From Candidatus Alloenteromonas pullicola (GTDB lineage: Bacteria > Bacillota_I > Bacilli_A > RFN20 > CAG-826), in contig DVMV01000009.1 of the NCBI GenBank assembly GCA_018714785.1, positions 1 to 37,130 of the forward strand: DNA of 37,130 nt, written 5' to 3'. How positions within the stretch are numbered: position 1 is the stretch's first letter; every line of letters begins with the position of its first letter. The notes under the pieces were generated by a model, which saw only the letters and a list, made by a program, of their open reading frames with translations, searched no databases and was not told the origin of the DNA. Made by a program: the position numbers and the translations under genes. Shown here piece by piece: positions 734 through 17,918 of the stretch.

Positions 734-2053
734 ATGAACAAGAAACTAGTCGCCACGCTGAGCCTATCGGCTCTCGCCCTAATCGCCTGCGGGGGGGGGA
801 AAGGCTCTGGCAACAACGCCAAGATCGTTGTCTGGGGACCGGACAAAGAGGAACCGGTCGTCAAGCAGATCGTCGATGCCTACAACGCCGCCAACCCCAA
901 CGACAAGATCGAATACACCTTCGTCGCCATCACCGAGGCCGACGCCGGGACCACCGTCGCCAACGACCCGACCGTCAAAGGCTACCCGTCGCTATTCGCC
1001 CTTGCCGATGACCAGCTATCCAACCTGACCACCATCAAGGGAATCGTCAACCCGCTGGGAACCGCCGCCGCTGAAGAGATCCGCGCCAACGACGTCGAGA
1101 CGGCCATCACCGCCGCCAGCATCGACGGCAACCTATATGCCTACCCGATCTCCGTCGACAACGGCTACTTCCTATACTACGACAAGCGCATCTACACCGA
1201 GGATGACGTCAAGACCCTCGAGACCGTCCTCGAGAAGGCCGCGGAAAACGAGCGCACCTTCGTCATGGACGTCCCCAACGGCTACTATTCCGCTTCCTTC
1301 TTCATGTCTCCGCAAGTCTGCGGCACCGACTCGCTCGGCTACGAGTACCTGCCGAGCGCCGATGGCACCAAGCAGATCGCCAAGTACGAGTGCAACTGGG
1401 ACAACGATGCCGGCGCCGAGATGGCCCTCGAATCATCGAAGCTCATGGTTCAATACGGTGCCAACACCAGCGACACCAACTCCACCTGGCTCGCCGTCGA
1501 CGACAACGGGCTCATGGGCCAAGGCGCGAAACTCGCCGCCTGCGTGTCTGGCATGTGGATGGCCGACCACCTCGGCTCCACCTGGGGCGCCGATAACGTT
1601 GGGGCCGTCAAACTCCCGACCCTTGCCGGGAACCAGCTCTCTTCCTTCGCCGGAACCAAGCTCTACTGCGTGAACTCCTACGCCACCGTCGCTGAGCAGA
1701 CCACCGCCCACAAGCTGGCCCAGCTGCTCACCAACAAGGATAGTCAGCTCATCCGCTACAAGCTGCGCAACTCCATCCCCTGCAACAAGGACGCCCAAGC
1801 CGACGAGAGCTACACCAGCACCCTCGCCAGCAACCCGACCGTCGCTGCCCTACAAACCCAAAGTCAATTCGCTGCCGTTCAGTCGGTCGCCGCTGAGTCT
1901 GCTTATTGGACCGTTGGCGAAGGCATCGGCGATGTCTTGACCAAGGGCACCTACACCGAGAACGACGTTACCACCACCTTGGACACCGTGGCCAAGTGGA
2001 AGACGTACCTTAGCGGTGCCTTGTCCGCCATCACCAACCCGGCCGGTCTATAA
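734..2053 (+). CDS. malE: Maltose/maltodextrin ABC transporter substrate-binding lipoprotein (MalE-like)
   Basis: SD aaggag; lipobox LIAC; 'KIVVWGPDKEEPVVKQIVDAYNAANP' typical of family 1 extracellular solute-binding proteins; followed by MalF/MalG-like permeases. Confidence 0.88.
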   Translation: MNKKLVATLSLSALALIACGGGKGSGNNAKIVVWGPDKEEPVVKQIVDAYNAANPNDKIEYTFVAITEADAGTTVANDPTVKGYPSLFALADDQLSNLTTIKGIVNPLGTAAAEEIRANDVETAITAASIDGNLYAYPISVDNGYFLYYDKRIYTEDDVKTLETVLEKAAENERTFVMDVPNGYYSASFFMSPQVCGTDSLGYEYLPSADGTKQIAKYECNWDNDAGAEMALESSKLMVQYGANTSDTNSTWLAVDDNGLMGQGAKLAACVSGMWMADHLGSTWGADNVGAVKLPTLAGNQLSSFAGTKLYCVNSYATVAEQTTAHKLAQLLTNKDSQLIRYKLRNSIPCNKDAQADESYTSTLASNPTVAALQTQSQFAAVQSVAAESAYWTVGEGIGDVLTKGTYTENDVTTTLDTVAKWKTYLSGALSAITNPAGL

Positions 2054-2174: not shown

Positions 2175-5102
2175 ATGGAAGAAAAAGATTCCGCACCGTT
2201 GCTCAATGAGCAAGAGGTGTCACAACTCAAACGCGAGGATGACTTCCTTCCTGCTTATATATGGGTGCCCGCGGCCATTTGGCGCGTGATTAAGGGCATC
2301 GTATTATGGGTCGTTGGGTTTGTCATCGATATCTTGGCTTCCCTTTGGAACGCCTGCGTTGCCGTTTATCGCGCCGCCACGAAGGGTACTAAGGCCCTTT
2401 GGAAAGGCGTTAAGTCGATTGGGCATAAATTTCGCTACAACGACATCTGGGGACGTTTAAGCTTCGGCCTGTTTGGCGTTTCCCACCTTGCTCATCGGCG
2501 CTATGTCAACGGTTTAGTGATGCTCGTATTCGAGATCGTCTATATCGTTTTCTTCGCCATGAACGGCATTGGGTCGATTGCCTCTCTTTCCAATCTTGGT
2601 GACATCAAGAAGTCGACGGTGACCGTCGACCCAATCACCGGCATAGGGCAAGCCACTCCCGCCGACAACTCTGTGCTTATCCTTGTTTACGGTATTTTAT
2701 GGGTAATTTCAATCTTCCTTTTCCTCTATGTTTGGAAGAGGTCGATCGATGCCGGCTATAAGAACTACCGCATTACCCATTACGAGGACTTCGTCCGCCG
2801 CGAGGAGACCGCCAAGCCGTATTCTGACCTCATCGACCGCGACATTGCGGAGCATGAGCTGTATACCTATAGCCTGAGGGAGCTTCGCGAGCGCTACTCG
2901 GAGGTCTATTCCTCGTTGCAGGAAAAAGCCAGTATTGGCAAAAACGGCAAGCCGTCGGAGATGGATAAGGCGTATTTCCGCTACATCCTGGATTCCACCA
3001 TCACCTACCGCAAGCAGTTCCATTCCGAACTGACCGCCCTCAACCGGAAAAAGGGCAAGATGGAAGAGTCTTTGCAGGCTTACCTAGATGAGCCGAAGGC
3101 AGCCAAGCGAGTCGAGGAGCTGCAGGCCCTTTCCAAAGACGCCGAGGAAAAGTACGCAGCCGCCATGGCCAAGATCGACGAGCTGCCGTCTTCCGCCACT
3201 CCGGAGGAGATAAAGGAAGCCAAGTCTGGGATCCATGGGCTTCGCCTCAAGAAAATATTGGCGGAGAACCGGCTGGTTGGCTACCGCCAGTCGCGCACCG
3301 ACAAAGCCGATAAGCGCCGGGCCAAGATCCGCCTGGTGTCGACCAAAATCGAGGAGCTGGAGAAGAACGATATGCCGTTCTCGACCATCGATTCGGTCGA
3401 GAACCAGAGCCAGTTCGGCAAGTTCAACGTCTACTACCGGCGGCTTGCCGACCTCGACCGGTCCATCCTCTTCTACAGCAACTATCAGGAGTTCGTTGAG
3501 GCCTACAAGCACGGGCTGGAGAACTATCAGGAGGCTAATGCCGCCAACCTATCGAGCCGCGAGGCCCTGACCAAGGAGAATTCCGAAAAGCTCTCGGCGA
3601 TCGCCGAGCAATACGACGCAATCGAGACCCGCCGCAATGGCCTGATCGCGGAGATGTCGCAGGAGAAGGAAAGGCTAAAGGTCGCCCTCACCCAAATCGG
3701 GGCCGACGATTCCCTTTCTGAGGCCGAGAAGAAAGCCAAATCGGCTGAAGCCAAGGCCGCCTGCGCCTATAACCTCAAGACGCTGAAGGGCAAGATACTC
3801 TCCCTCCCAAGCAAGAAGGAGGTCAAGGCTTCGCGCAAGGAGGACGTGGTCAATACCAACAGGGCATATAAGCGCGATTACAAGGGGCTTCGCGTCGATT
3901 ACACCCCCGAGGAATACGCCGTCTACTGCGCCGCCAACAAGATGATCGTCGACTATGGCTTCGACTACGTCTTCGCCAACGAGAAGGCGAAGAAGGAGAT
4001 TAAGGAGAAGCCGCTATCCGACGACCAAGTCAAGCAGAAGCTCGAGGATGCAGAGCAGAAGCGCCGAGAATACGTCGAGGCAACACCCACCAAATTCGAC
4101 GGTAAGCCCAAAACTTTGCTTGAGCAGCTCAAATCGCTCTTCGACGAAAACTTCCACATCTTCCTTCTGGCTTTGCCGGTTCTCGGCGTCATCTTCTTCA
4201 CGATCATGCCGCTCGCGCTCTCGATCATGGTCGCGTTCACCAACTTCAACAACCAGAATCAGCCGCCGACGGCCGGGTTCTCCTGGATCGGATGGGACAA
4301 CTTCGCAAAATTGCTGCTTGGCAGCGGCTCGGGGCAAGGAAGCCTCGCGGCCGGCATGTCCCGCACCATCGTCTGGACGTTCGTCTGGGCCATATGCGCC
4401 ACCTTCTCCAACTACTTCCTGGGCATAATCATGGCCTTGCTCATCAACAAGGACGGAATCAAGCTGAAGGGCTTCTGGAGGTTCATGTTCATGATCTCCA
4501 TCGCGGTCCCGCAGTTCATCTCCCTCATCGCCATGAACATCCTTCTGTCGAACACCGGCGCCCTCTCCGCCCTTTACCAGCAGCTGACCGGATCGCCGCT
4601 TAACTTCGCGATTGGACACAACCCGGCCGACGTCACCAGGACCAAGGTGATTATCATCCTCGTCAACATCTGGATCGGTGTTCCCTACACCATCCTCTCG
4701 ACATCCGGCATCCTGATGAACATCCCGCGCGATCTCTACGAGTCCTCGAAGATCGATGGGGCCAACGCCTTCGTGCAGTTCACCAAGATTACCTTGCCGT
4801 ACATCTTCTTCGTCACAGGCCCCTCGCTCATCCAGAGCTTCATCGGCAACATCAATAACTTCGGCGTCATCTACTTCCTAACCGGAGGCGGCGCCACATA
4901 CGATGAGACGGTCTTCAACCGACTCCTCGGCGAGACCGACCTGCTTATCACCTACATCTACAAAGTCGTCACCTCGGTCAACAACTCCGACTTCGGCTTA
5001 GCCTCCACGATCGGCATATTCGTCTTCGTGATCTGCGCCTTCATCTCTCTCGTCATGTATAACCGGTCTAGCGCCGTCTCCGGGGAGGATACGTTCCAAT
5101 GA
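2175..5102 (+). CDS. malF: Maltodextrin ABC transporter permease (MalF-like) with N-terminal TM domain and ~430-aa coiled-coil insertion
   Basis: C-terminal third has binding-protein-dependent permease TMs and EAA-like loop 'IPRDLYESSKIDGANAFVQFTKITLPYI'; N-terminal TMs, then a long charged helical region. Confidence 0.85.
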   Translation: MEEKDSAPLLNEQEVSQLKREDDFLPAYIWVPAAIWRVIKGIVLWVVGFVIDILASLWNACVAVYRAATKGTKALWKGVKSIGHKFRYNDIWGRLSFGLFGVSHLAHRRYVNGLVMLVFEIVYIVFFAMNGIGSIASLSNLGDIKKSTVTVDPITGIGQATPADNSVLILVYGILWVISIFLFLYVWKRSIDAGYKNYRITHYEDFVRREETAKPYSDLIDRDIAEHELYTYSLRELRERYSEVYSSLQEKASIGKNGKPSEMDKAYFRYILDSTITYRKQFHSELTALNRKKGKMEESLQAYLDEPKAAKRVEELQALSKDAEEKYAAAMAKIDELPSSATPEEIKEAKSGIHGLRLKKILAENRLVGYRQSRTDKADKRRAKIRLVSTKIEELEKNDMPFSTIDSVENQSQFGKFNVYYRRLADLDRSILFYSNYQEFVEAYKHGLENYQEANAANLSSREALTKENSEKLSAIAEQYDAIETRRNGLIAEMSQEKERLKVALTQIGADDSLSEAEKKAKSAEAKAACAYNLKTLKGKILSLPSKKEVKASRKEDVVNTNRAYKRDYKGLRVDYTPEEYAVYCAANKMIVDYGFDYVFANEKAKKEIKEKPLSDDQVKQKLEDAEQKRREYVEATPTKFDGKPKTLLEQLKSLFDENFHIFLLALPVLGVIFFTIMPLALSIMVAFTNFNNQNQPPTAGFSWIGWDNFAKLLLGSGSGQGSLAAGMSRTIVWTFVWAICATFSNYFLGIIMALLINKDGIKLKGFWRFMFMISIAVPQFISLIAMNILLSNTGALSALYQQLTGSPLNFAIGHNPADVTRTKVIIILVNIWIGVPYTILSTSGILMNIPRDLYESSKIDGANAFVQFTKITLPYIFFVTGPSLIQSFIGNINNFGVIYFLTGGGATYDETVFNRLLGETDLLITYIYKVVTSVNNSDFGLASTIGIFVFVICAFISLVMYNRSSAVSGEDTFQ

Positions 5103-6013
5103 AATCGCAAAAAGCCTCAAAGATCATCTCCCTGACCATCGTCTACGTCATACTCGCGGTTTGCGCCATCGTCTGGGTCCTTCCCTTCGTCTGGCTGATA
5201 ATGCAGTCGTTCGGCTACAATGCCAGCGGGAAATCGAGCTTCATGCCCGATTGGTCCACTGCCACCTTCGCCAACTACGGCTATCTCTTCACCGGCGGGA
5301 CGCCCGACTATCAGACGACCGGCAGCTCGCTGGACATCAATCCGTACAACGGGCTAAGCTACTATCTCACCTGGTTCCTCAACACCTTCGTGATCGCGGT
5401 CATCTGCTGCATCATCAACACCCTGTTCGTGCTTATGGTCGCCTATGCCATGAGCCGCTTCAGGTTCAAAGGGCGCCAGATGCTGATGAAGCTCAACCTG
5501 ATACTTGGCATGTTCCCTGGGTTCCTAGGCATGATCATCATGTATTGGGTCATGAAGGAGATATTCCACCTTCAGGGCACGTTCTGGGCGCTAATCTTCA
5601 TCTACTCCGCCGGATCCGGCATGGGATTCTTCATCTCCAAGGGGTTCTTCGACACGATCTCGAAATCCATCGACGAGGCCGCCCAGATCGACGGGGCCAA
5701 CAAGGCCCAGATCTTCTGGAACATCATATTGCCGCTGTCGAAGCCGATCGTCGTCTACACGATCCTAACGGCCTTCATGTCACCCTGGGGCGACTACATC
5801 ACCTCGAGCTATATCATTGGCTTGCAGAACACATCGCAGTGGACGATCGCCATCGGGTTGTATAAGTGGGCCACCGACCTCAACTACGCCTCGGTCTACT
5901 ACACCCGCTACGCCGCCGGGTCGGTCGTCATCGCCGTCCCGCTCGCAATACTGTTCATCGCGACTCAGAAATACTACGTCGCCGGCGTCACCGGCGGAGC
6001 CGTCAAAGGCTAA
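5099..6013 (+). CDS. malG: Maltodextrin ABC transporter permease (MalG-like)
   Basis: ATGA overlap with malF; EAA motif 'SIDEAAQIDGANKAQIFWNIILPLSKP'; multiple TMs. Confidence 0.88.
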   Translation: MKSQKASKIISLTIVYVILAVCAIVWVLPFVWLIMQSFGYNASGKSSFMPDWSTATFANYGYLFTGGTPDYQTTGSSLDINPYNGLSYYLTWFLNTFVIAVICCIINTLFVLMVAYAMSRFRFKGRQMLMKLNLILGMFPGFLGMIIMYWVMKEIFHLQGTFWALIFIYSAGSGMGFFISKGFFDTISKSIDEAAQIDGANKAQIFWNIILPLSKPIVVYTILTAFMSPWGDYITSSYIIGLQNTSQWTIAIGLYKWATDLNYASVYYTRYAAGSVVIAVPLAILFIATQKYYVAGVTGGAVKG

Positions 6014-6023
6014 AAGGAGAAAT

Positions 6024-7667
6024 ATGAAAAAACGGCAGATGTCCTTAGGGGCGCTAGTGTTGCCCTTGGCCACCTGCCTTTTTTCCTGCCAATCGAGCAA
6101 AGGGCCGACCGTGGACCCGTCGCTGAATCCGATTGGGCTGGAAGAAGGCAATGGCGACCTCGGGATCTCCTCGACCCCGAATAACGAAGGCGGATCGCTC
6201 CATTACGAGATATTCGTTAGGAGCTTCTGCGACTCCGACGGGGATGGGATCGGCGACTTCAACGGGGTGGCTTCAAAGGCCGATTACCTGCAATCGCTGG
6301 GAATCGGCGAGGTCTGGCTGATGCCAATCGGCCCCTCGCCCAGCTACCACGGCTACGACGTGAGCGACTATTACTCAGTCAATCCCGACTTCGGCACCAT
6401 GGAGGAGTTCGAGGCGATGGTCGATACGCTCAACGAGCATGGCATCCGGGTTACGATAGACATGGTGCTGAACCACTCGGCCAACACGAACCCGTGGTTC
6501 AACGAATCCTGCGAAGACTACTCCGAAGGCTATCAAGGCGCGGACTCAAAGGCCGACTGGTACATGTGGAGCGACACCCAGGTAAGCGGCAATTACCACA
6601 ATTACCTGGGCAAATACTACCTCGGGGCCTTCTCGCCATCGATGCCCGACTTCAACTGGGACTCCCCTTCCTTGCGCTCCGAGATGAAGAAGATCCTCCA
6701 GTTCTGGATCGGAAAGGGCGTCCAGGGGTACCGGCTCGACGCCGTGAGGTACTACTACGAGGAGAACGTGGCCAAGAACATTGAGGCCCTCGATTACATC
6801 GCTGAGTGCTGCCGCGAGGTCGACCCCGATTTCTACATCGTCGGGGAGAACTGGGGCAACGGGCTCGATTACCTAGACTACTACGCCTCCGACATCGACT
6901 CGTTCTTCAACTTCAACACCTCGATCGCCTATTCCAGCGGCACGACGATCATCTCCTCGGCCAAACTGCTCAATTCCGGGGATTCCTACGTCGCGACCGT
7001 CGCCAACAGCCAGAAGGCCGTCAAGGAGAAAAACCCCTCCTCCTACAACTCGTTCTTCATCGCCAACCACGACACCGACCGGGCCAGCAAGTCGCTTTAC
7101 GGCGACTACGCCAAGGTCGGGGCGGCGATAGTCTACCTGCTCCCGGGGACCCCGTATATCTATTATGGCGAGGAGATTGAGCTTTGGGGCGTCAGGGGGA
7201 GCGAGGGCACCGACGCGATGCGCCGCCTCCCGATGGTCTGGGGCGAAGGGCACGAGGCGGAGGAGTGCGATTTCCCCGACAAAACCGCCTCCTACCTGAA
7301 AGCCGAAGCCGAGCAGAACCAAGTCAAGGAAGGGGTTTATGACCAGCTGGGGGACCCGTTCTCGCTGCTTAACGTCTACCGCAAGATCGCCGAGGTCAGG
7401 AACAGCTACCCCTTCATAAGGGACGCCCAGATGAAGGCCATCGCCACCAAGACCCGCAACTTCTTCGCCTATGAGTTGATCGGCGAAGGAGAGGGCGAGG
7501 ACATCGTCGTGGTCATCAACGGCGACGACGTGGCCGCCGAGCTCAACCTAAGCGACTACTCGTCGTTCCACCTCGACAACGAGGTCCAGACCATGGGCCT
7601 GAAGGCGAGCTGGAAAGGCGGGAAGCTTGGGCTTGGGGGATATTCGATCGCCGTCTTGAGCAAGTAG
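6024..7667 (+). CDS. Lipoprotein alpha-amylase family glycosidase (GH13)
   Basis: SD aaaggag before ATG at 6024 (the ORF-track start at 5817 is an upstream extension); lipobox LFSC; GH13 motifs DMVLNH, GYRLDAVRYY, IVGENWG, ANHDTDR. Confidence 0.9.
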   Translation: MKKRQMSLGALVLPLATCLFSCQSSKGPTVDPSLNPIGLEEGNGDLGISSTPNNEGGSLHYEIFVRSFCDSDGDGIGDFNGVASKADYLQSLGIGEVWLMPIGPSPSYHGYDVSDYYSVNPDFGTMEEFEAMVDTLNEHGIRVTIDMVLNHSANTNPWFNESCEDYSEGYQGADSKADWYMWSDTQVSGNYHNYLGKYYLGAFSPSMPDFNWDSPSLRSEMKKILQFWIGKGVQGYRLDAVRYYYEENVAKNIEALDYIAECCREVDPDFYIVGENWGNGLDYLDYYASDIDSFFNFNTSIAYSSGTTIISSAKLLNSGDSYVATVANSQKAVKEKNPSSYNSFFIANHDTDRASKSLYGDYAKVGAAIVYLLPGTPYIYYGEEIELWGVRGSEGTDAMRRLPMVWGEGHEAEECDFPDKTASYLKAEAEQNQVKEGVYDQLGDPFSLLNVYRKIAEVRNSYPFIRDAQMKAIATKTRNFFAYELIGEGEGEDIVVVINGDDVAAELNLSDYSSFHLDNEVQTMGLKASWKGGKLGLGGYSIAVLSK

Positions 7668-7732: not shown

Positions 7733-7990
7733 ATGCCACGCGCCAAACGTAACGCCAAGCAGATGATGGAGGACATCGACTCCGCCGAGGGGCTTTCCGC
7801 CACCAGGGGAACCGATGCCGAGCTCGCCAAGCAAGCGAAGAAAAAGGCGAGGGAGGAACGTTCCTCGATCGCCAAGAAGAACCGGATGTACACCATAGCC
7901 TACGTCCTTATCGCCATCGCCGTCTTCGGGCTGGGGCTATTGGTCATCGCGCTGATGAATCTGGCGATTTACGGCGAATTCGGGCTTTAG
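7733..7990 (+). CDS. Small membrane protein with charged N-terminus and one C-terminal TM helix
   Basis: 85-aa ORF; hydrophobic segment 'MYTIAYVLIAIAVFGLGLLVIALMNLAIY'; TAGAAT box 6 nt before ATG. Confidence 0.6.
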   Translation: MPRAKRNAKQMMEDIDSAEGLSATRGTDAELAKQAKKKAREERSSIAKKNRMYTIAYVLIAIAVFGLGLLVIALMNLAIYGEFGL

Positions 7991-9042
7991 GCCTTGCCGT
8001 CCTCGTCTTTGACGTCCATGCTCTCCGCCGCGGCGAGCTTGGTCACGTATTCGGGGTCGGTGTAGGACGAGAGCGCCTTCGCCCCGACCACCATCTCGTC
8101 GATGTCGTCGTTGAAGACGGTGCTTTGGGAGTTGTCGATGAGGACGATGCCGGATATGGTCTCCAAAAACGGCTCTCTCTTCTGGAACAATATGCAGTAA
8201 AGCAGATTGAGGAAGTAGGGGAACGCCAAAAGCAGGGTCGCCGTGTAGGCGTTGAGGAATATCGCGGTCAGGAGGGGCAAAGGCAGCCCGACTAGGGCTT
8301 TGGCCAGGATCCTGACGGCGCTGGTGCGGTAGCCGTCCTTCCCGCAGGTGCCGACGCGAAGCAACGCATCCCCGAGGCTGCCGCGGTTCTTCGTGAGGAA
8401 TGGGATGACCGCCATGAAGACGGCGTAGGAAAGCAAGAACGAGGAAACCACCCCGTACATCGTCGAGGTGTTGATGTAGACGAGGTTCGCCTCATATTCG
8501 GGGTCGATTTCCTGGAGCATCATCTTTAGATACGAATAGGCGTCGGAGTAAATTGAGCGGACGTCCTCCTCGCCCCTTTTCCCGAGGTCGTCGCTCTTCT
8601 GGCCAATCTGATTGACGTCGGGAAGGCCGTCGACCAGGATATACGAGAAATACTGGGTTTTGTAATTGGTCGGGCTCGGATCCTCCGGGAGGCGGAGGAC
8701 GTTGACGTTGTAATAGGCGATGAGGCTATACCCTTCGGGGACGAAGAGGTCCTCTATCTCCTCCGGGAACTCCACGAAATAGAAGTCATCCACCGCCTGC
8801 TTGAACTCTTCCTGGCTGCTGTTCGACGGGAGCTTCAGGTCGAGCGAGGTGAGCAATGAATCGTTGTAATCGTTGGCTTCTTCGATGGCGTGGCTGTTTA
8901 TCGTTATCGGATAGCAGACGGAGAAATAAACCGCGATCCAAGCGACGATTATGAAGAGGAAATTCAGCGCCGATCCGAGGAGTATCCTCGGCAGGCTGGC
9001 CGGCTCGACCCCAAGATTTTGGTTTCTATTCCTCTTCGCCAT
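7987..9042 (-). CDS. RDD-like membrane protein with large extracytoplasmic insert
   Basis: Start placed at 9042 (MAKRNRNQ..., purine-rich SD); TM segments flank a ~170-aa polar loop; 'LVGLPLPLLTAIFLNAYTATLLLAFPYFLNLLYCILFQKREPFLETISGIVLID' resembles an RDD C-terminal half. Confidence 0.65.
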   Translation of the reverse strand: MAKRNRNQNLGVEPASLPRILLGSALNFLFIIVAWIAVYFSVCYPITINSHAIEEANDYNDSLLTSLDLKLPSNSSQEEFKQAVDDFYFVEFPEEIEDLFVPEGYSLIAYYNVNVLRLPEDPSPTNYKTQYFSYILVDGLPDVNQIGQKSDDLGKRGEEDVRSIYSDAYSYLKMMLQEIDPEYEANLVYINTSTMYGVVSSFLLSYAVFMAVIPFLTKNRGSLGDALLRVGTCGKDGYRTSAVRILAKALVGLPLPLLTAIFLNAYTATLLLAFPYFLNLLYCILFQKREPFLETISGIVLIDNSQSTVFNDDIDEMVVGAKALSSYTDPEYVTKLAAAESMDVKDEDGKA

Positions 9043-10042
9043 CTTCGCCGCCCTTCCTTCCTTTTGCCATCCGCTCATTGAATTCCTCCTCCTCGGCCGG
9101 ATCGAGGAACCACAGCGACTCATCGGATTTGGCCACCACGCTTCCGGCTAGGTAGTCGTGGAGGGAACGGTGCTTCTTGGTGAAAAGCGCCATGGTGTAG
9201 GAAATCAAAAGCGTCGCCCCGAAACTCGCCACCGCCCCGGCCACCTCCGAAAGGAAGAAGGCGAGAAAGCGCCATATCAGCTTGGGGCGCGGGTAGACGT
9301 AGCCTTTGTCGGTCAGCACGGCGAGCTTCAAGATCTTCTTCCCGAACGTCTCGCCGTTTGGATAGCAAAGCGGCACCAGCAGGAAGAAAACGGCCATTGA
9401 GGCGAAGATGACCGGAACCGCCATTCCGATGGCGAAGAAGGCGTCGGAGTTTATCTCGTCGTTGGCGGCTTTGATGGCCGGGTCGTTGGAAAGGCTCGTC
9501 ATCGCCTCGTCGTAGGTTTTATAGAGGAAATCATAGGCCACGAGCTCCTCGGTGCCCTCCTTGAACCTCGCCCGGTAGATGCCGTCTTCGAGATAGACGC
9601 GCTCGACCGGCGAGCTGTCGTCGCCTATTAGCATTATCGAGGTCTCGAATCCCTCGAAGCTGACGTTCTGGTTCCCGAAATCGGTGGCCTTTTCGGTCCA
9701 ATACAGCGTCAGGGCGGTCAATAGGTAGAACTCCTGCTCCTGCCCATCGTAATAGACGGTGGTGGAGAAGAAGTCGGTGGTCTTCGACACCGTCCCATAG
9801 GCCAGGGGGTCGACCGCCGCCCCCGAGAATTCGGAATACAGCCCGGAGTCGAGCTTGCGCTGGTTTATGATCGACTCGTTGGCCTGGAAGGACTCGGCGT
9901 CCACCACGAAGGGCAGAACGCAGGGGAAATAGACGATGCAGGACAAGGCGATGGAGCAGACGAGGTCGAAAAGGAAGGCGAAAGCCCGCCTCCACATCCC
10001 GCCCAAAACGATTATCTTCGCGGTTTTCTTGGTTCGTTCCAT
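9026..10042 (-). CDS. RDD family membrane protein with large extracytoplasmic insert
   Basis: Start placed at 10042 (MERTKKTAK..., SD-like agaag); 'MWRRAFAFLFDLVCSIAL' and 'FGKKILKLAVLTDKGYVYPRPKLIWRFLAFF...FTKKHRSLHDYLAGSVVAK' are RDD-like; ~190-aa loop between TM1 and TM2. Confidence 0.78.
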   Translation of the reverse strand: MERTKKTAKIIVLGGMWRRAFAFLFDLVCSIALSCIVYFPCVLPFVVDAESFQANESIINQRKLDSGLYSEFSGAAVDPLAYGTVSKTTDFFSTTVYYDGQEQEFYLLTALTLYWTEKATDFGNQNVSFEGFETSIMLIGDDSSPVERVYLEDGIYRARFKEGTEELVAYDFLYKTYDEAMTSLSNDPAIKAANDEINSDAFFAIGMAVPVIFASMAVFFLLVPLCYPNGETFGKKILKLAVLTDKGYVYPRPKLIWRFLAFFLSEVAGAVASFGATLLISYTMALFTKKHRSLHDYLAGSVVAKSDESLWFLDPAEEEEFNERMAKGRKGGEDGEEE

Positions 10043-10231
10043 AGGATCTTCTTTTATATCTAGATAATATGCGCGCATAAGACCATTCAGGCAAGGCAAA
10101 CAAGAGCCGTTTGCGGCCATTTCGGCAAATCAGGCTAAGTAAATCGGTTTCCTTGGCGAAGCCGGGGGCTTCCGTAACCAGAGAAGGCCTCCCCGGCGGG
10201 CAAAAGGGAACGGGGAAGTGGGGATTTTTAC

Positions 10232-10260: not shown

Positions 10261-10360
10261 ACACGCTAGATAGGCAGGGCAAGCACCTGTCCCGCGGCGG
10301 AGCGAAGTGATCGCATCTGCCAAGGGGTCGTATTTGCGTGCCATCAAAAGGAGATCAACA

Positions 10361-11527
10361 ATGGCAGAGAAACTTGAGAAGCTCCACCTCGACGAAGAGA
10401 AGATCGAGAATGTGGCTTCGGCCGAGGAAACCGACGACGCCCACAAAGGGGCTTTCGTGTCGCTTCGGCACATCGACAAGGTCTACGACAACAACGTCCA
10501 GGCCGTATTCGACTTCAATTTGGACATCGCGAAGCATGAGTTCATCGTCTTCGTCGGCCCCTCGGGGTGCGGCAAATCGACCACCCTCCGCATGGTGGCC
10601 GGTCTTGAGGACATCACCCGCGGCGAACTCTACATCGACGGCGAGCTCTGCAACGACAAGCAGCCGAAGGACCGCAACATCGCCATGGTCTTCCAGTCAT
10701 ATGCCCTTTATCCCCATATGTCGGTCTACGACAACATGGCGTTCGGCCTCAAGATCGCCCACCTCCCGAAGGCGGAGATCGACAAGCGCGTCCACGACGC
10801 CGCGAGGATCCTCCAGATCGAGCAATACCTAGACCGCAAGCCGAAGGCCCTCTCCGGCGGACAGAGGCAGCGCGTCGCGCTAGGCCGCGCCATCGTCCGC
10901 AACGCCAAGGTCTTCCTCATGGACGAGCCGCTATCCAACCTCGACGCCAAGCTGCGCGTCCAGATGCGCTCGGAGATAGTCAAGCTCCACCAGGCGCTCG
11001 GGGCGACCACCATCTACGTCACCCACGACCAGACCGAGGCCATGACCATGGCCAACCGGATCGTCGTAATGAAGCTCGGCCGCATACAGCAGATCGGATC
11101 GCCTAAGGAGATATACAACAACCCGGCCAACCTCTTCGTCGCCGGCTTCATCGGATCGCCGTCGATGAACTTCCTCAAGTCGAAAGTTGCCAAGAAGGAA
11201 ATCGAGTTCAAAGGCGGGAAGAAGATGAAGCTCCCCGATTCCTTGCTAAAGGGGAAGAACATCGAAGGCGACGTGATCTTCGGCATCCGCCCGGAGGACA
11301 TCCACATCGCCACCGCCGAAGACAAGGGCGACAACGTCATCGAGGCCGAGGTCAGGGTTGCCGAGCTATTGGGCGCGGAATACTACCTGCACTGCGACTT
11401 CGGAGGCATCGATTTGGTCGCGAAGTTCCCGGCCGAGAAGGAAATCAAACCCGGCGATAAGGTCGACATGGCCTTCACGCTGAAGAAGGCCAAGTTCTTC
11501 GACCCCGAAAGCGAAGCTGCGCTATAA
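10361..11527 (+). CDS. msmX: Sugar ABC transporter ATP-binding protein (MsmX/MalK/UgpC type)
   Basis: SD aaaggag; Walker [10 protein letters not shown], signature [14 protein letters not shown], Walker [14 protein letters not shown]-loop [10 protein letters not shown]-terminal regulatory/TOBE-like region. Confidence 0.93.
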
Positions 11528-14600: not shown

Positions 14601-14660
14601 GCCATCGAGCTGTCGCGCTTTGAGGCGCTTATACTCCGCTACCAAGGGGGCAGCCTATGA
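11604..14660 (+). CDS. pulA: Lipoprotein type I pullulanase (GH13 with N-terminal CBM-like and CBM48-like domains)
   Basis: SD aaggag; lipobox LVGC; Ser/Thr-rich linker; type I pullulanase signature YNWGYNPENYNVPEGMYS; GFRFDLMGVID, VVYGEGW, YISCHDNYTLYDQL. Confidence 0.92.
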   Translation: MKKRIIGIAASALALLVGCAPASSSSESSTKEPTSTSTPDESSSEPISSSDTPISTSSSSSTNAGISVDDWDGIIRVYYRGTDGSEAGKNIYVWSESMAGLEYEFTGTEDGYGVYRDFDCSDPTFAGKFTENFYFIIKNPGTWSGQSSDTVVPLAKMAAGGEIKDGRRWLYIYAVDGEGSDIDTFPTKLDALGDNITTTYLTSDWSSIHVEGSAAIDRLVIYGLSTEYYELSIPEQNAQLQNFLICDNKYEEDLISVDVPVDGGVDPQTTYRVTAYFKSNPSRAKTKYATPYRLYDTDKFASDYTYAGHDLGVTYTKQATTFKVWAPTSARVRVYVYDYGTPQSLASKDDPNYGQLDYRLVYTLDYLGDGVYGKTIEGDLEGKFYQFNLYYDETSHLSIDPYAKASGINGIRGAIIDFDKTDPEGWDDVSFDPLMSPNDLTVYEVHVRDFTIDETWNTRNKDVKRGTYRAFVEPGTTYNGVTTGFDSLKELGVNAAQILPIFDQDNEERTYDTFDSDGNLISHYEPTYNWGYNPENYNVPEGMYSSDPYDPYCRIRELKYMIQQLADAGIRTIMDVVYNHVSSVASHPFTIFAPRYYFRYTEDGYLIDDTGVNNTVNSDRPMASAFIVDSIDWWASEYKMKGFRFDLMGVIDTATMRKVKDSLYDIDPEIVVYGEGWTGGGSHASSPSDIANVYAKLRDNGKGSVGVFNDCGRDGMKGNTTWANVTPTTGNFLDSLAPSSNSIYNAATMYIGENRDRKNSGLATPPEMTVNYISCHDNYTLYDQLNYQLNGPSSAGADHLNAIEATVASTAMLLSGEGIAFIHGGEEIFRTKLMKRGDPLFDQFVDTYGAASDGTSSWIAGDGVEIDDDTWLVRNSYMWGDAVNSYKWDRKYQYKQYFDKYAEAIHARNELIEEGYLGHSESEVNSGAASLLSTIRDGLPAMGAKFLNEDGGQVISLLSGRVIGGNITMPLGQEVAKGSYEIVYSSSLNRLGQTIDLGDAIELSRFEALILRYQGGSL

Positions 14661-15745
14661 GAAAGGCTTTATTCGCCATCGCCTGCGGTGCGCTGCTATG
14701 CTCCTGCGGGGGAGGGGGCTCCTCATCCACGGGGCAGACCAAATACCAGTCCTTCACCATCACCTTCGTGTCCAACGGGGGCACGGAGGTGAAGCCGCTG
14801 CAGGTCGAATACGGCGAGAAAGCGGCCAAGCCCGCCGACCCGACCAAGGGCGAGGATGAGTTCCTCGGGTGGTTCGTGGACGCCGTCTGCGTGACGCCGT
14901 TCGACTGGGACATCGAGATAACCTCCGACTGGACGCTTTACGCCGGGTGGGGCGAGGAATCAGAGCCAACCGACACCACGCCCGAGCCGGGCCCAGATAC
15001 CAGCGACACGACGCCGGACCCCGAACCGACCTCGCTCACCATCTACTTCCGCGATGCCAGCTGGTGGAACGCCGATGAGGCCGTGGCCTACATCAAGGTC
15101 GACGGGGCCGGCAGCACCGCGCTCGGCACGCCGATGTCGCACCTGCGCTTCTGCCCGACCGTCAATTCGCAGATCGGTTACAACTACTGGTCATACACCA
15201 TTGAGGAATACGACGCCGACACAACCGTGCAGTTCTTCCGCGGCTCGAAGGCCGGGGATGACTGGAACGCCCACACCGGGGTCGTATCGCTATCCGACCG
15301 GGATGGCCACGATCTATACGACATCAAGGATTCCACCGCCACCTGGGGAGCCGATTTCTTTGGTTCCTGGGCGGACTACGACGAGTCGGACCTCGGCAAT
15401 CCCGACGCCCCTGAGGTGATCGATGCCCGGGCCTACGTGGTGGGCGACGGCAGCTTCGCCTCGGCCGCCTGGAAAGTCAGCGGCGGCATCGCCCTGATCG
15501 ACGACCCAGCCAACCCGAACCTGGTCAAAGCGACCGGCGTGGAATTCGCGGTGGGCGACCTGTTCAAGGTCACCGTGCCCGACACCAACGCCTGGATCGG
15601 CTATCCTGGGCTCACCGGATCGCTTAAGGGCGCCAACTTCGTCGACTCCGGCAGCGACTCCAACATCGAGGTCGCCATATCCGGCACATACGACATAGCC
15701 TTCGACTTCTCGTCGAATTCGATAAGCATCGCCTTAGCGGCCTAA
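14657..15745 (+). CDS. Multidomain lipoprotein: InlB-B/Listeria-Bacteroides-type repeat plus putative starch-binding module
   Basis: ATGA overlap with pulA; lipobox LLCSC; 'ITFVSNGGTEVKPLQVEYGEKAAKPADPTK..FLGWFVD...WTLYAGW'; then WW-containing beta module shared with the next gene. Confidence 0.82.
   Translation: MRKALFAIACGALLCSCGGGGSSSTGQTKYQSFTITFVSNGGTEVKPLQVEYGEKAAKPADPTKGEDEFLGWFVDAVCVTPFDWDIEITSDWTLYAGWGEESEPTDTTPEPGPDTSDTTPDPEPTSLTIYFRDASWWNADEAVAYIKVDGAGSTALGTPMSHLRFCPTVNSQIGYNYWSYTIEEYDADTTVQFFRGSKAGDDWNAHTGVVSLSDRDGHDLYDIKDSTATWGADFFGSWADYDESDLGNPDAPEVIDARAYVVGDGSFASAAWKVSGGIALIDDPANPNLVKATGVEFAVGDLFKVTVPDTNAWIGYPGLTGSLKGANFVDSGSDSNIEVAISGTYDIAFDFSSNSISIALAA
15034..15414 (+). repeat. 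Shared beta module, copy 1
   Basis: Encodes LTIYFRDASWWNADEAVAYIKV...LRFCPTV...YNYWSYTI...DWNAHTG...HDLYDI...YDESDLGNPDAPE. Confidence 0.75.
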
Positions 15746-15755
15746 GGGGGGAACC

Positions 15756-17918
15756 ATGAAAAACAGAATACTTATATTGCCGTTGGCTCTGCTGGGGCTA
15801 GGGCTTGCCGCCTGCTCGCCCGAGCCAAGCGTCAGCCATAGCAGCATCCAGGACGGGACCGACTCCACGCAGGCCTCATCGAGCCAGCAGCCTACCTCGA
15901 GCAGCTCCTCGACGGGCTCCGAGCCATCAAGCGACTCCTCGTCGAGCACCGAGCCGGATAGGCTTACCTTCACCATCTACTTCCACAGCAACGGTGGGAC
16001 CGAGGTCGAGCCGGAGACCGTCTTCGAGGGCGATCTGGCCACCGAGCCGGAAGACCCGATCCTTGATGGCTTCACCTTCGACGCCTGGTATGAGGACAAA
16101 GCCCTGACCAAGCCGTTCGATTTCCTGACGCCCATCCATTCCGATTGGCATCTTTACGCGGGATATACCGAGGAAGGGGCGACCGTCGTCGACCCCGAGC
16201 CGTTCACCCTCTATTTCCGCGACGCTAGCTGGTGGAGCACCGATGGGGCGAAAGCTTTCGCCAAGCTCGGCAGCGAGGGGGAGGACTACGGCGCGGAGAT
16301 GGAGAACCTCCGCTTCTGCAACGATGAGTACCAGGGCGTAGGGTACAACTATTACAAAGTCGACATACCCGACGTCAACGCCACCCCGACCCTCACCATC
16401 TACCGCATGGGACTGACCGAGGGCCTCCTTAGCTATTGGGGGGCCTACACCGCGACCATCGACCTCACCGAGCGGGGCGAGCACAACCTTTACGACATCA
16501 AATCGACCGAGGCCACCTGGGACGGGCCGGTCGAGGGCGTCTGGGGCGACTATGACCCCAACGACCTCGGCAACCCGGATGCCCCCGAGCCGCCGATAAA
16601 CACCGATGAGGTCTACCTTAAGGGCAGCTTCAACGGCTGGTCCGAGGACGATTCGTACAAGCTCGAGGGCGACCCCGAGGCCAAGGGCATCTACTCGATC
16701 AGCGACGTCTACATGCCCGAGGGGAGCGCCTTCAAGGTCCACGACGTGACCAACAGCATCTGGGCCGGCTATTCGCTCATCACCGCCGACAGCCCGGTCA
16801 AGGAAGAGCTCACCAGCGACGCCGACGGCAACGCCGTCACCCTCATGGAGGGGACCTACGACATAATCTACGGCCGCGGCGAGGGCGGGGCCTACCTCAC
16901 CATCAGCGGCGACCTCAAGGAGCCGGTGACCTACTCGCTTCTCGTCGGCGATGATTCCCGGCCGATGAGGAAGACGTCCGAGCAGGCCAGCATCGAGCAG
17001 ACCCTGCTGCTGCAGGGCGATGAGTTCACCATCTCCAGCTCGGAGGGCGATTCCTATGGCTATGCCGACCTCTCCGCCGCAATCGAGCAGATTGAGGAAG
17101 GGGAGGGCGGCGCCATCAAGGCGCTCCAGGAGGGCTATTACACCATCTCGCTCTCCTTCGGCGCCATGGAGATCGGCGTCGAATACGTTGGCGCCGAGAA
17201 GGCCACCACCGATATCTACTTCTCCTCCCCCAACTGGTGGAACCAGGCCGGGGCGGCCACCTACGTCCAGCTCGATTCCGAGCCGGAGCAGAAGATGGCC
17301 GAGCTCCGTTTCTGCCCGACCGTCTCCACCGTCGAAGGGTACAAGTACTGGTCGATCAGCATCGACGACATCGACCAATACTCGACCATAACCTTCCTCC
17401 GCTGCAGCGCCAGCGGCGAGGACTGGGGGGCCAGGACCGGGGCGATTAGCCTCGACGAGCGGGGCGAGAACGACCTCTACGACTGCTCCTTGGCGACCGA
17501 GGCCTGGTATGGTGATGGAAACCTCACGGTTGGCAGCTGGGCCGCATACGACCCCAACGACCGCGGCAACGTCGACGCCCCCGAGCCGATCCGGGAAACC
17601 TATCTGATCGGCTCTGGTTCCTGGATTGGCGAGGGCGACGAGTTCACCATAGCCTCGGGCATCAAGATGGAAGCCAACACCGCGACCGAGGTCAAGCTGC
17701 TCGGGCTGGCGCTTGAGGCCGGCGACGAGTTCGCCATCTCCGACCTCGGGACCACCTACGGGTTCTCCGCGCTGAAGAGCAACGAGCTGGTCGGCACCGC
17801 GCTTAAGGAAGGCGCGGACGGCCAGGTCGTGGTCGAGGAGGAAGGGACCTACGACTTCTATTTCGACTTCAATAGCGCCTCTAGCGGCGCCCAAAGCCTT
17901 TGGGTTGCGAGGCTCTAA
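15756..17918 (+). CDS. Multidomain lipoprotein: InlB-type repeat, two shared beta modules, CBM-like 'LKGSFNGW' domain
   Basis: Lipobox LAAC; Ser-rich linker; FTIYFHSNGGTEVEPETVF...LYAGY; modules beginning YFRDASWW and YFSSPNWW; 'VYLKGSFNGWSEDDSYKLEG'. Confidence 0.85.
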   Translation: MKNRILILPLALLGLGLAACSPEPSVSHSSIQDGTDSTQASSSQQPTSSSSSTGSEPSSDSSSSTEPDRLTFTIYFHSNGGTEVEPETVFEGDLATEPEDPILDGFTFDAWYEDKALTKPFDFLTPIHSDWHLYAGYTEEGATVVDPEPFTLYFRDASWWSTDGAKAFAKLGSEGEDYGAEMENLRFCNDEYQGVGYNYYKVDIPDVNATPTLTIYRMGLTEGLLSYWGAYTATIDLTERGEHNLYDIKSTEATWDGPVEGVWGDYDPNDLGNPDAPEPPINTDEVYLKGSFNGWSEDDSYKLEGDPEAKGIYSISDVYMPEGSAFKVHDVTNSIWAGYSLITADSPVKEELTSDADGNAVTLMEGTYDIIYGRGEGGAYLTISGDLKEPVTYSLLVGDDSRPMRKTSEQASIEQTLLLQGDEFTISSSEGDSYGYADLSAAIEQIEEGEGGAIKALQEGYYTISLSFGAMEIGVEYVGAEKATTDIYFSSPNWWNQAGAATYVQLDSEPEQKMAELRFCPTVSTVEGYKYWSISIDDIDQYSTITFLRCSASGEDWGARTGAISLDERGENDLYDCSLATEAWYGDGNLTVGSWAAYDPNDRGNVDAPEPIRETYLIGSGSWIGEGDEFTIASGIKMEANTATEVKLLGLALEAGDEFAISDLGTTYGFSALKSNELVGTALKEGADGQVVVEEEGTYDFYFDFNSASSGAQSLWVARL
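16203..16593 (+). repeat. Shared beta module, copy 2
   Basis: Encodes FTLYFRDASWWSTDGAKAFAKL...LRFCNDEYQGVGYNYYKVDI...ERGEHNLYDI...YDPNDLGNPDAPE. Confidence 0.75.
17204..17590 (+). repeat. Shared beta module, copy 3
   Basis: Encodes TTDIYFSSPNWWNQAGAATYVQL...LRFCPTV...YKYWSISI...ERGENDLYDC...YDPNDRGNVDAPE. Confidence 0.75.

Follow-up and report, generated by a model that had tools for sequence, protein, structure and literature searches.

A lineage-specific domain, predicted to be all-helical and placed by homology in the cytoplasm, within the MalF-type permease of a predicted maltodextrin importer

What is a charged helical stretch of several hundred residues doing in the middle of a sugar permease? 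The question is raised by one gene in the window, the whole stretch of 37,130 nucleotides of Candidatus Alloenteromonas pullicola DNA analysed here. The insertion that it encodes is called type 1 below, and the gene lies in the following setting:

734..2053, + strand: MalE-type sugar-binding lipoprotein (PF13416)
2175..5102, + strand: MalF-type permease carrying the insertion, an intact open reading frame of 975 aa (PF00528; MalF is its best NCBIfam and PDB match)
5099..6013, + strand: MalG-type permease (PF00528; best NCBIfam match MalG)
6021..7667, + strand: GH13 amylase with a lipoprotein-like signal (PF00128), a conserved neighbour in most insertion-bearing loci
10307..11527, + strand: MalK/UgpC-type ATPase, likely the energy subunit (NF008653, 486.9 bits against a cut-off of 432)

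Further amylase- and pullulanase-like proteins are encoded beyond the ATPase region, and on this gene content the locus is a predicted starch/maltodextrin uptake locus. Several other genes accompany it. Upstream of the MalE gene is a small lipoprotein-like gene (193-708, 171 aa) with no Pfam match, whose relatives are found at the corresponding position of several type 1 loci. Two overlapping genes for RDD-like membrane proteins lie on the minus strand at 7987-10120, and similar ones are found near several type 1 loci. At 14657-17918, between the pullulanase-like and amylase genes, two adjacent open reading frames each have a Listeria-Bacteroides repeat domain near their start.

The permease itself can be divided into four parts:

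2253..2435, + strand: long amphipathic, hydrophobic N-terminal helix, residues 27-87 (a single helix in the AlphaFold2 model)
2436..2786, + strand: N-terminal module of two transmembrane helices, residues 88-204 (114-132 and 166-191 by hydropathy)
2787..4133, + strand: inserted helical domain (type 1), residues 205-653 (alignment to short-linker MalF; 21 of 279 genomes; AlphaFold2 pLDDT 88.7)
4134..5099, + strand: permease core with the EAA loop, residues 654-975 (PF00528)

The PF00528 core covers residues 748-961 and scores 57.1 bits, against a Pfam gathering score of 26.4. The EAA loop is found at residues 855-875 (YESSKIDGANAFVQFTKITLP), and 14 relatives all have its E856, G862, I872 and P875. 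Core score and EAA loop together assign the 975-aa protein to the CUT1 type I ABC importer permeases, and with the loop intact, the ATPase should still be able to dock. MalF is the closest NCBIfam model: the MalF equivalog NF008232 aligns through the C-terminal half of the model only, and its score of 147 bits is below the curated cut-off of 392. Ahead of the core, residues 27-87 are strongly amphipathic with a period of 3.62 (0 of 1000 shuffles were as strong), and the module at 88-204 has a mean pairwise identity of 0.52.

Hydropathy finds membrane segments at 38-56, 114-132 and 166-191, and the next one is at 662-680, so that none lies between 191 and 662, as the topology proposed in the initial annotation would have it. 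The insertion fills this gap, with the N-terminal membrane module before it and the first transmembrane helix of the core after it. It had been described as about 430 aa at 2790-4110, which the boundaries found here closely match: residues 205-653 make 449 aa, of which 19% are Lys or Arg, 18% Asp or Glu and 10% Ala. In the short MalF relatives of the order, the module-to-core linker is mostly 17-27 aa by alignment; these relatives do lack the insertion, as had been said of canonical MalF. The post-insertion helix aligns with the helix that opens the core in type I permeases, the match to AlgM1 starting at query residue 660. By homology, the insertion site would be the cytoplasmic TM2-TM3 loop of MalF, and since the next helix is the equivalent of MalF TM3, which starts on the inner side of the membrane and ends on the outer one, the insertion should face the cytoplasm. 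The cytoplasmic location suggested at the outset is supported in this way, the insertion directly preceding the TM3-equivalent helix. In E. coli MalF the TM2-TM3 loop is short, and it is the periplasmic P2 loop that is large, about 180 aa. Here the large P2 loop is missing, with only about 45 aa between helices 662-680 and 724-757 by hydropathy. A P2 loop in a shifted position is ruled out, because the insertion is at the wrong place and on the wrong side. Twenty further genomes carry the insertion at the same site, some copies within long contigs, and this recurrence argues against chance or an assembly fault; with identical architecture in 21 genomes, a gene fusion, frame or assembly artefact is ruled out.

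For the domain and an alignment of 14 sequences, AlphaFold2 returns a mean pLDDT of 88.7 and a pTM of 0.53. Nearly the whole model is helical, the longest helix reaching 74 residues, and when the full-length protein is modelled, confidence is highest in the insertion. A disordered linker is ruled out by this ordered prediction. The arrangement of the parts relative to one another is unsure, the pTM being only 0.53. The parts, described as hubs and arms, are these:

2958..3179, + strand: arm A, long helices, residues 262-335, the second half variable in length
3375..3554, + strand: hub 1, residues 401-460, constant in length (motif YGKFN.YY...FY.NY...N..N)
3555..3803, + strand: arm B, residues 461-543, variable in length
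3804..4007, + strand: hub 2, residues 544-611 (motif LP..K...KEE...AYKRD.K.LK..YT)
4008..4133, + strand: exit segment, residues 612-653, constant in length and leading into the membrane (motif P..F.GKP)

An alignment of 18 insertions has 14 invariant positions, clustered in 401-460, 544-611 and the exit segment. Segments 401-460 and 612-653 are of equal length in all relatives, and 544-611 ranges from 66 to 86 aa. Lengths in the arms vary more widely: 13-92 aa for the segment at 305-342, 27-50 for 461-510 and 21-48 for 511-543. Between close pairs, dN/dS is 0.055-0.108 in the insertion, compared with 0.009-0.091 in the core. The insertion is thus clearly under purifying selection, mostly weaker than that on the core. 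Disorder without conservation, which had been named as the outcome that would overturn the idea of a domain, is not what is seen, given the pLDDT of 88.7 and the 14 invariant positions.

Is the domain a coiled coil? When hydrophobicity is averaged over the family, a period of about 3.5 residues is found in helices 203-226, 307-335, 343-397 and 437-510 (1-18 of 1000 shuffles were as high), and none is found in the hub helices 402-435, 547-571 and 578-611. A heptad test on the single sequence over the whole insert is not significant (28 of 100 shuffles). The insertion is therefore only partly a coiled coil, with coiled-coil-like arms and a hub without heptad periodicity. The charged coiled coil first proposed stands as far as composition and the periodic arm helices go, but the most conserved part is the non-periodic hub. 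Searches of the insertion against Pfam, NCBIfam and PDB sequences find no family, only helical matches at chance level, and Foldseek against the PDB gives no match better than E 0.5. An F-BAR-like fold was rejected, the Foldseek matches having E-values above 1 and low TM-scores. A literature search found nothing relevant on a MalF with a cytoplasmic coiled-coil insertion. What is new here is a putatively cytoplasmic domain, of no family in the libraries searched and undescribed so far, in an otherwise ordinary sugar permease.

With the insertion alone as query, matches are found in 8 of the 31 genomes of the genus and in 21 of the 279 of the order, where the insertion is 402-542 aa long, and profile A1, built from 18 insertions, recovers exactly the same 21. 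In samples drawn evenly from the class (395 genomes) and the phylum (372), all matches but two are in members of the order. These two, G555 (E 4e-4) and G653 (E 1e-4), lie outside the order and are weak partial profile hits that look like coiled-coil noise. All type 1 copies are inside MalF proteins, 932-1069 aa long. The source genome has one copy in an incomplete assembly of 1.05 Mb in 41 contigs, and metagenome-assembled genomes are among the carriers. Of the 279 order genomes, 190 match the MalF core at E ≤ 1e-40, most of the matches listed being frames of 500-550 codons. The type 1 domain is found in a minority of close relatives, and is neither widespread nor annotated in the libraries searched; wide spread with annotation, named beforehand as a refutation, did not appear.

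The same loop holds other insertions. Another 23 genomes of the order have a type 2 insertion of about 345-500 aa there (proteins L082-L089 and L157-L168), with the distinct motifs HTYDKYNDY and EDEVS..NG. Homology between types 1 and 2 is not detectable by hhalign (probability 3-4%, E 0.01), and treating them as one domain was rejected, E 0.01 and a probability of 4% not being enough. Type 2 is related to inserts of about 200 aa such as that of L173 (hmmsearch E 6.5e-29). What type 1 has in common with these is limited to the exit segment of about 40 aa next to the membrane (E 5e-6), so that residues 612-653 are partly common to other insertion types. No genome has both types, with about 1.7 expected by chance, and mutual exclusion is too weak to claim. 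The largest loop, 989 aa, is in the 1514-aa MalF L169 (G092 C2), and about 100 residues in its last part match type 1 (hhalign E 1.4e-7, one comparison). Linker lengths between TM2 and TM3 in the order are 17, 71, 118, 209, 221, about 350-560 and 989 aa, the charged, helical-looking additions of 71-118 aa being those of L176 and L174. The MalF TM2-TM3 loop is thus a repeated site of domain gain. A maximum-likelihood tree built from core sequences only groups all type 1 proteins in one clade (100/100) and all type 2 proteins in another (100/98), so that the type of insertion follows the permease lineage. Proteins of the order's two families are intermixed in the type 1 clade, suggesting either cassette transfer or old paralogy with loss. 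Additions of other kinds are also seen. Two short-linker MalF proteins, L170 and L171, have a charged, helical-looking extension of about 190 aa at the N-terminus and not in the loop. In the source genome, the oligopeptide-type permease L002 (C5, ~39995-40552) carries behind its first membrane helix a Ser/Thr/Gly-rich insertion of about 430 aa that probably lies outside the cytoplasm.

What could the type 1 domain be for? A conserved hub that hardly changes in length, joined to arms that do, is what a binding platform fitted with spacers would look like, and it leads to a docking reading. The account that we tentatively find most plausible is that of a folded, lineage-specific, all-helical cytoplasmic MalF domain of a maltodextrin importer that would serve as a platform on which a partner from the cytoplasm docks. 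Such a domain would have grown in the TM2-TM3 loop, its last hub segment running straight into the membrane and its hub carrying the long coiled-coil-like arms. The partner, which could be a regulator or an enzyme of sugar processing, would bind to the conserved hub, with the arms as spacers or clamps beside the ATPase. We infer both the partner binding and its purpose. In a comparison of neighbourhoods, no gene for a cytoplasmic protein was found to be both conserved beside insertion-bearing loci and specific to them. The domain is not needed for transport as such, since short MalF paralogues without it are kept in related genomes. The loop has gained different domains more than once, which points to a useful place for attaching cytoplasmic proteins.

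An unlikely alternative is that the domain acts directly on MalK, hub or arms bracing the MalK dimer and gating its closure in place of MalK-borne regulation. Regulation of the ATPase, like the scaffolding of transporters, had been suggested at the outset. Its position beside the ATPase, again by homology, would suit this, and so would the ATPases themselves: those near type 1 loci are of one plain kind, 74-76% identical to that of the window, whereas those near short MalF are more divergent (mostly 46-58%) and some have C-terminal extensions. But an ATPase is within reach at only 10 type 1 loci, and L090, a short MalF, is also near a similar one (72% identical over the sequenced part). The MalE-MalF-MalG-GH13 order is common to most type 1 and type 2 loci, while in many sampled short-MalF loci MalK adjoins MalG instead. 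The MalK proteins L177 and L178, encoded next to short MalF, have C-terminal extensions; the type 1 MalK proteins are without these. The ATPase pattern fits, without proving, a division in which one system has its cytoplasmic control on the permease and the other has it on the ATPase.

Self-association of the arms, gathering transporters into membrane arrays, is distinctly unlikely: the long helices have a hydrophobic period of about 3.5 residues and arm length varies as that of spacers does, but conservation is strongest in the non-periodic hub and not in the arms. A tolerated expansion, in which a permissive cytoplasmic loop gathers charged helical sequence of little function, is quite improbable: linkers in the order do range from 17 to 989 aa, different insertions share one site and the insertion evolves faster than the core, but the hubs keep constant lengths and invariant residues in 18 divergent copies from two families, close-pair dN/dS is about 0.1 or lower, and the insertion is kept in small genomes.

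The docking reading can be taken further. In known maltose importers, cytoplasmic control acts on MalK. It is conceivable, if doubtful, that large folded domains on the cytoplasmic side have arisen in this one MalF loop at least twice independently within a single order, as a new permease-borne docking or regulatory module that replaces MalK-borne regulation. A large folded domain that is borne by the permease and conserved within one permease lineage, with a different domain in its place in sister lineages, would offer regulators or enzymes a new attachment place on a sugar importer.

Among known systems, E. coli MalF (MalFGK2; PDB 2r6g, 3fh6 and 9nxc) is the best fold match. The core of the window's permease aligns with it over residues 701-961 (E ~1e-36), and it has the same MalEFG setting and extra N-terminal membrane helices ahead of the core. 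It differs in its loops, with a short TM2-TM3 loop and a P2 of about 180 aa, compared with about 450 aa and about 45 aa here. The type 2 long MalF proteins have a large insertion at the identical site and the same MalE-MalF-MalG-GH13 locus, but their insertion is not detectably homologous, is absent from the 21 type 1 genomes and has the L173-like inserts of about 200 aa as its kin. The short MalF paralogues of the order (500-550 aa) share the N-terminal module, the core and the MalEFG context, and differ in having a linker of mostly 17-27 aa where the domain would be. Since some of these are found in the same genomes, they provide a ready-made comparison.
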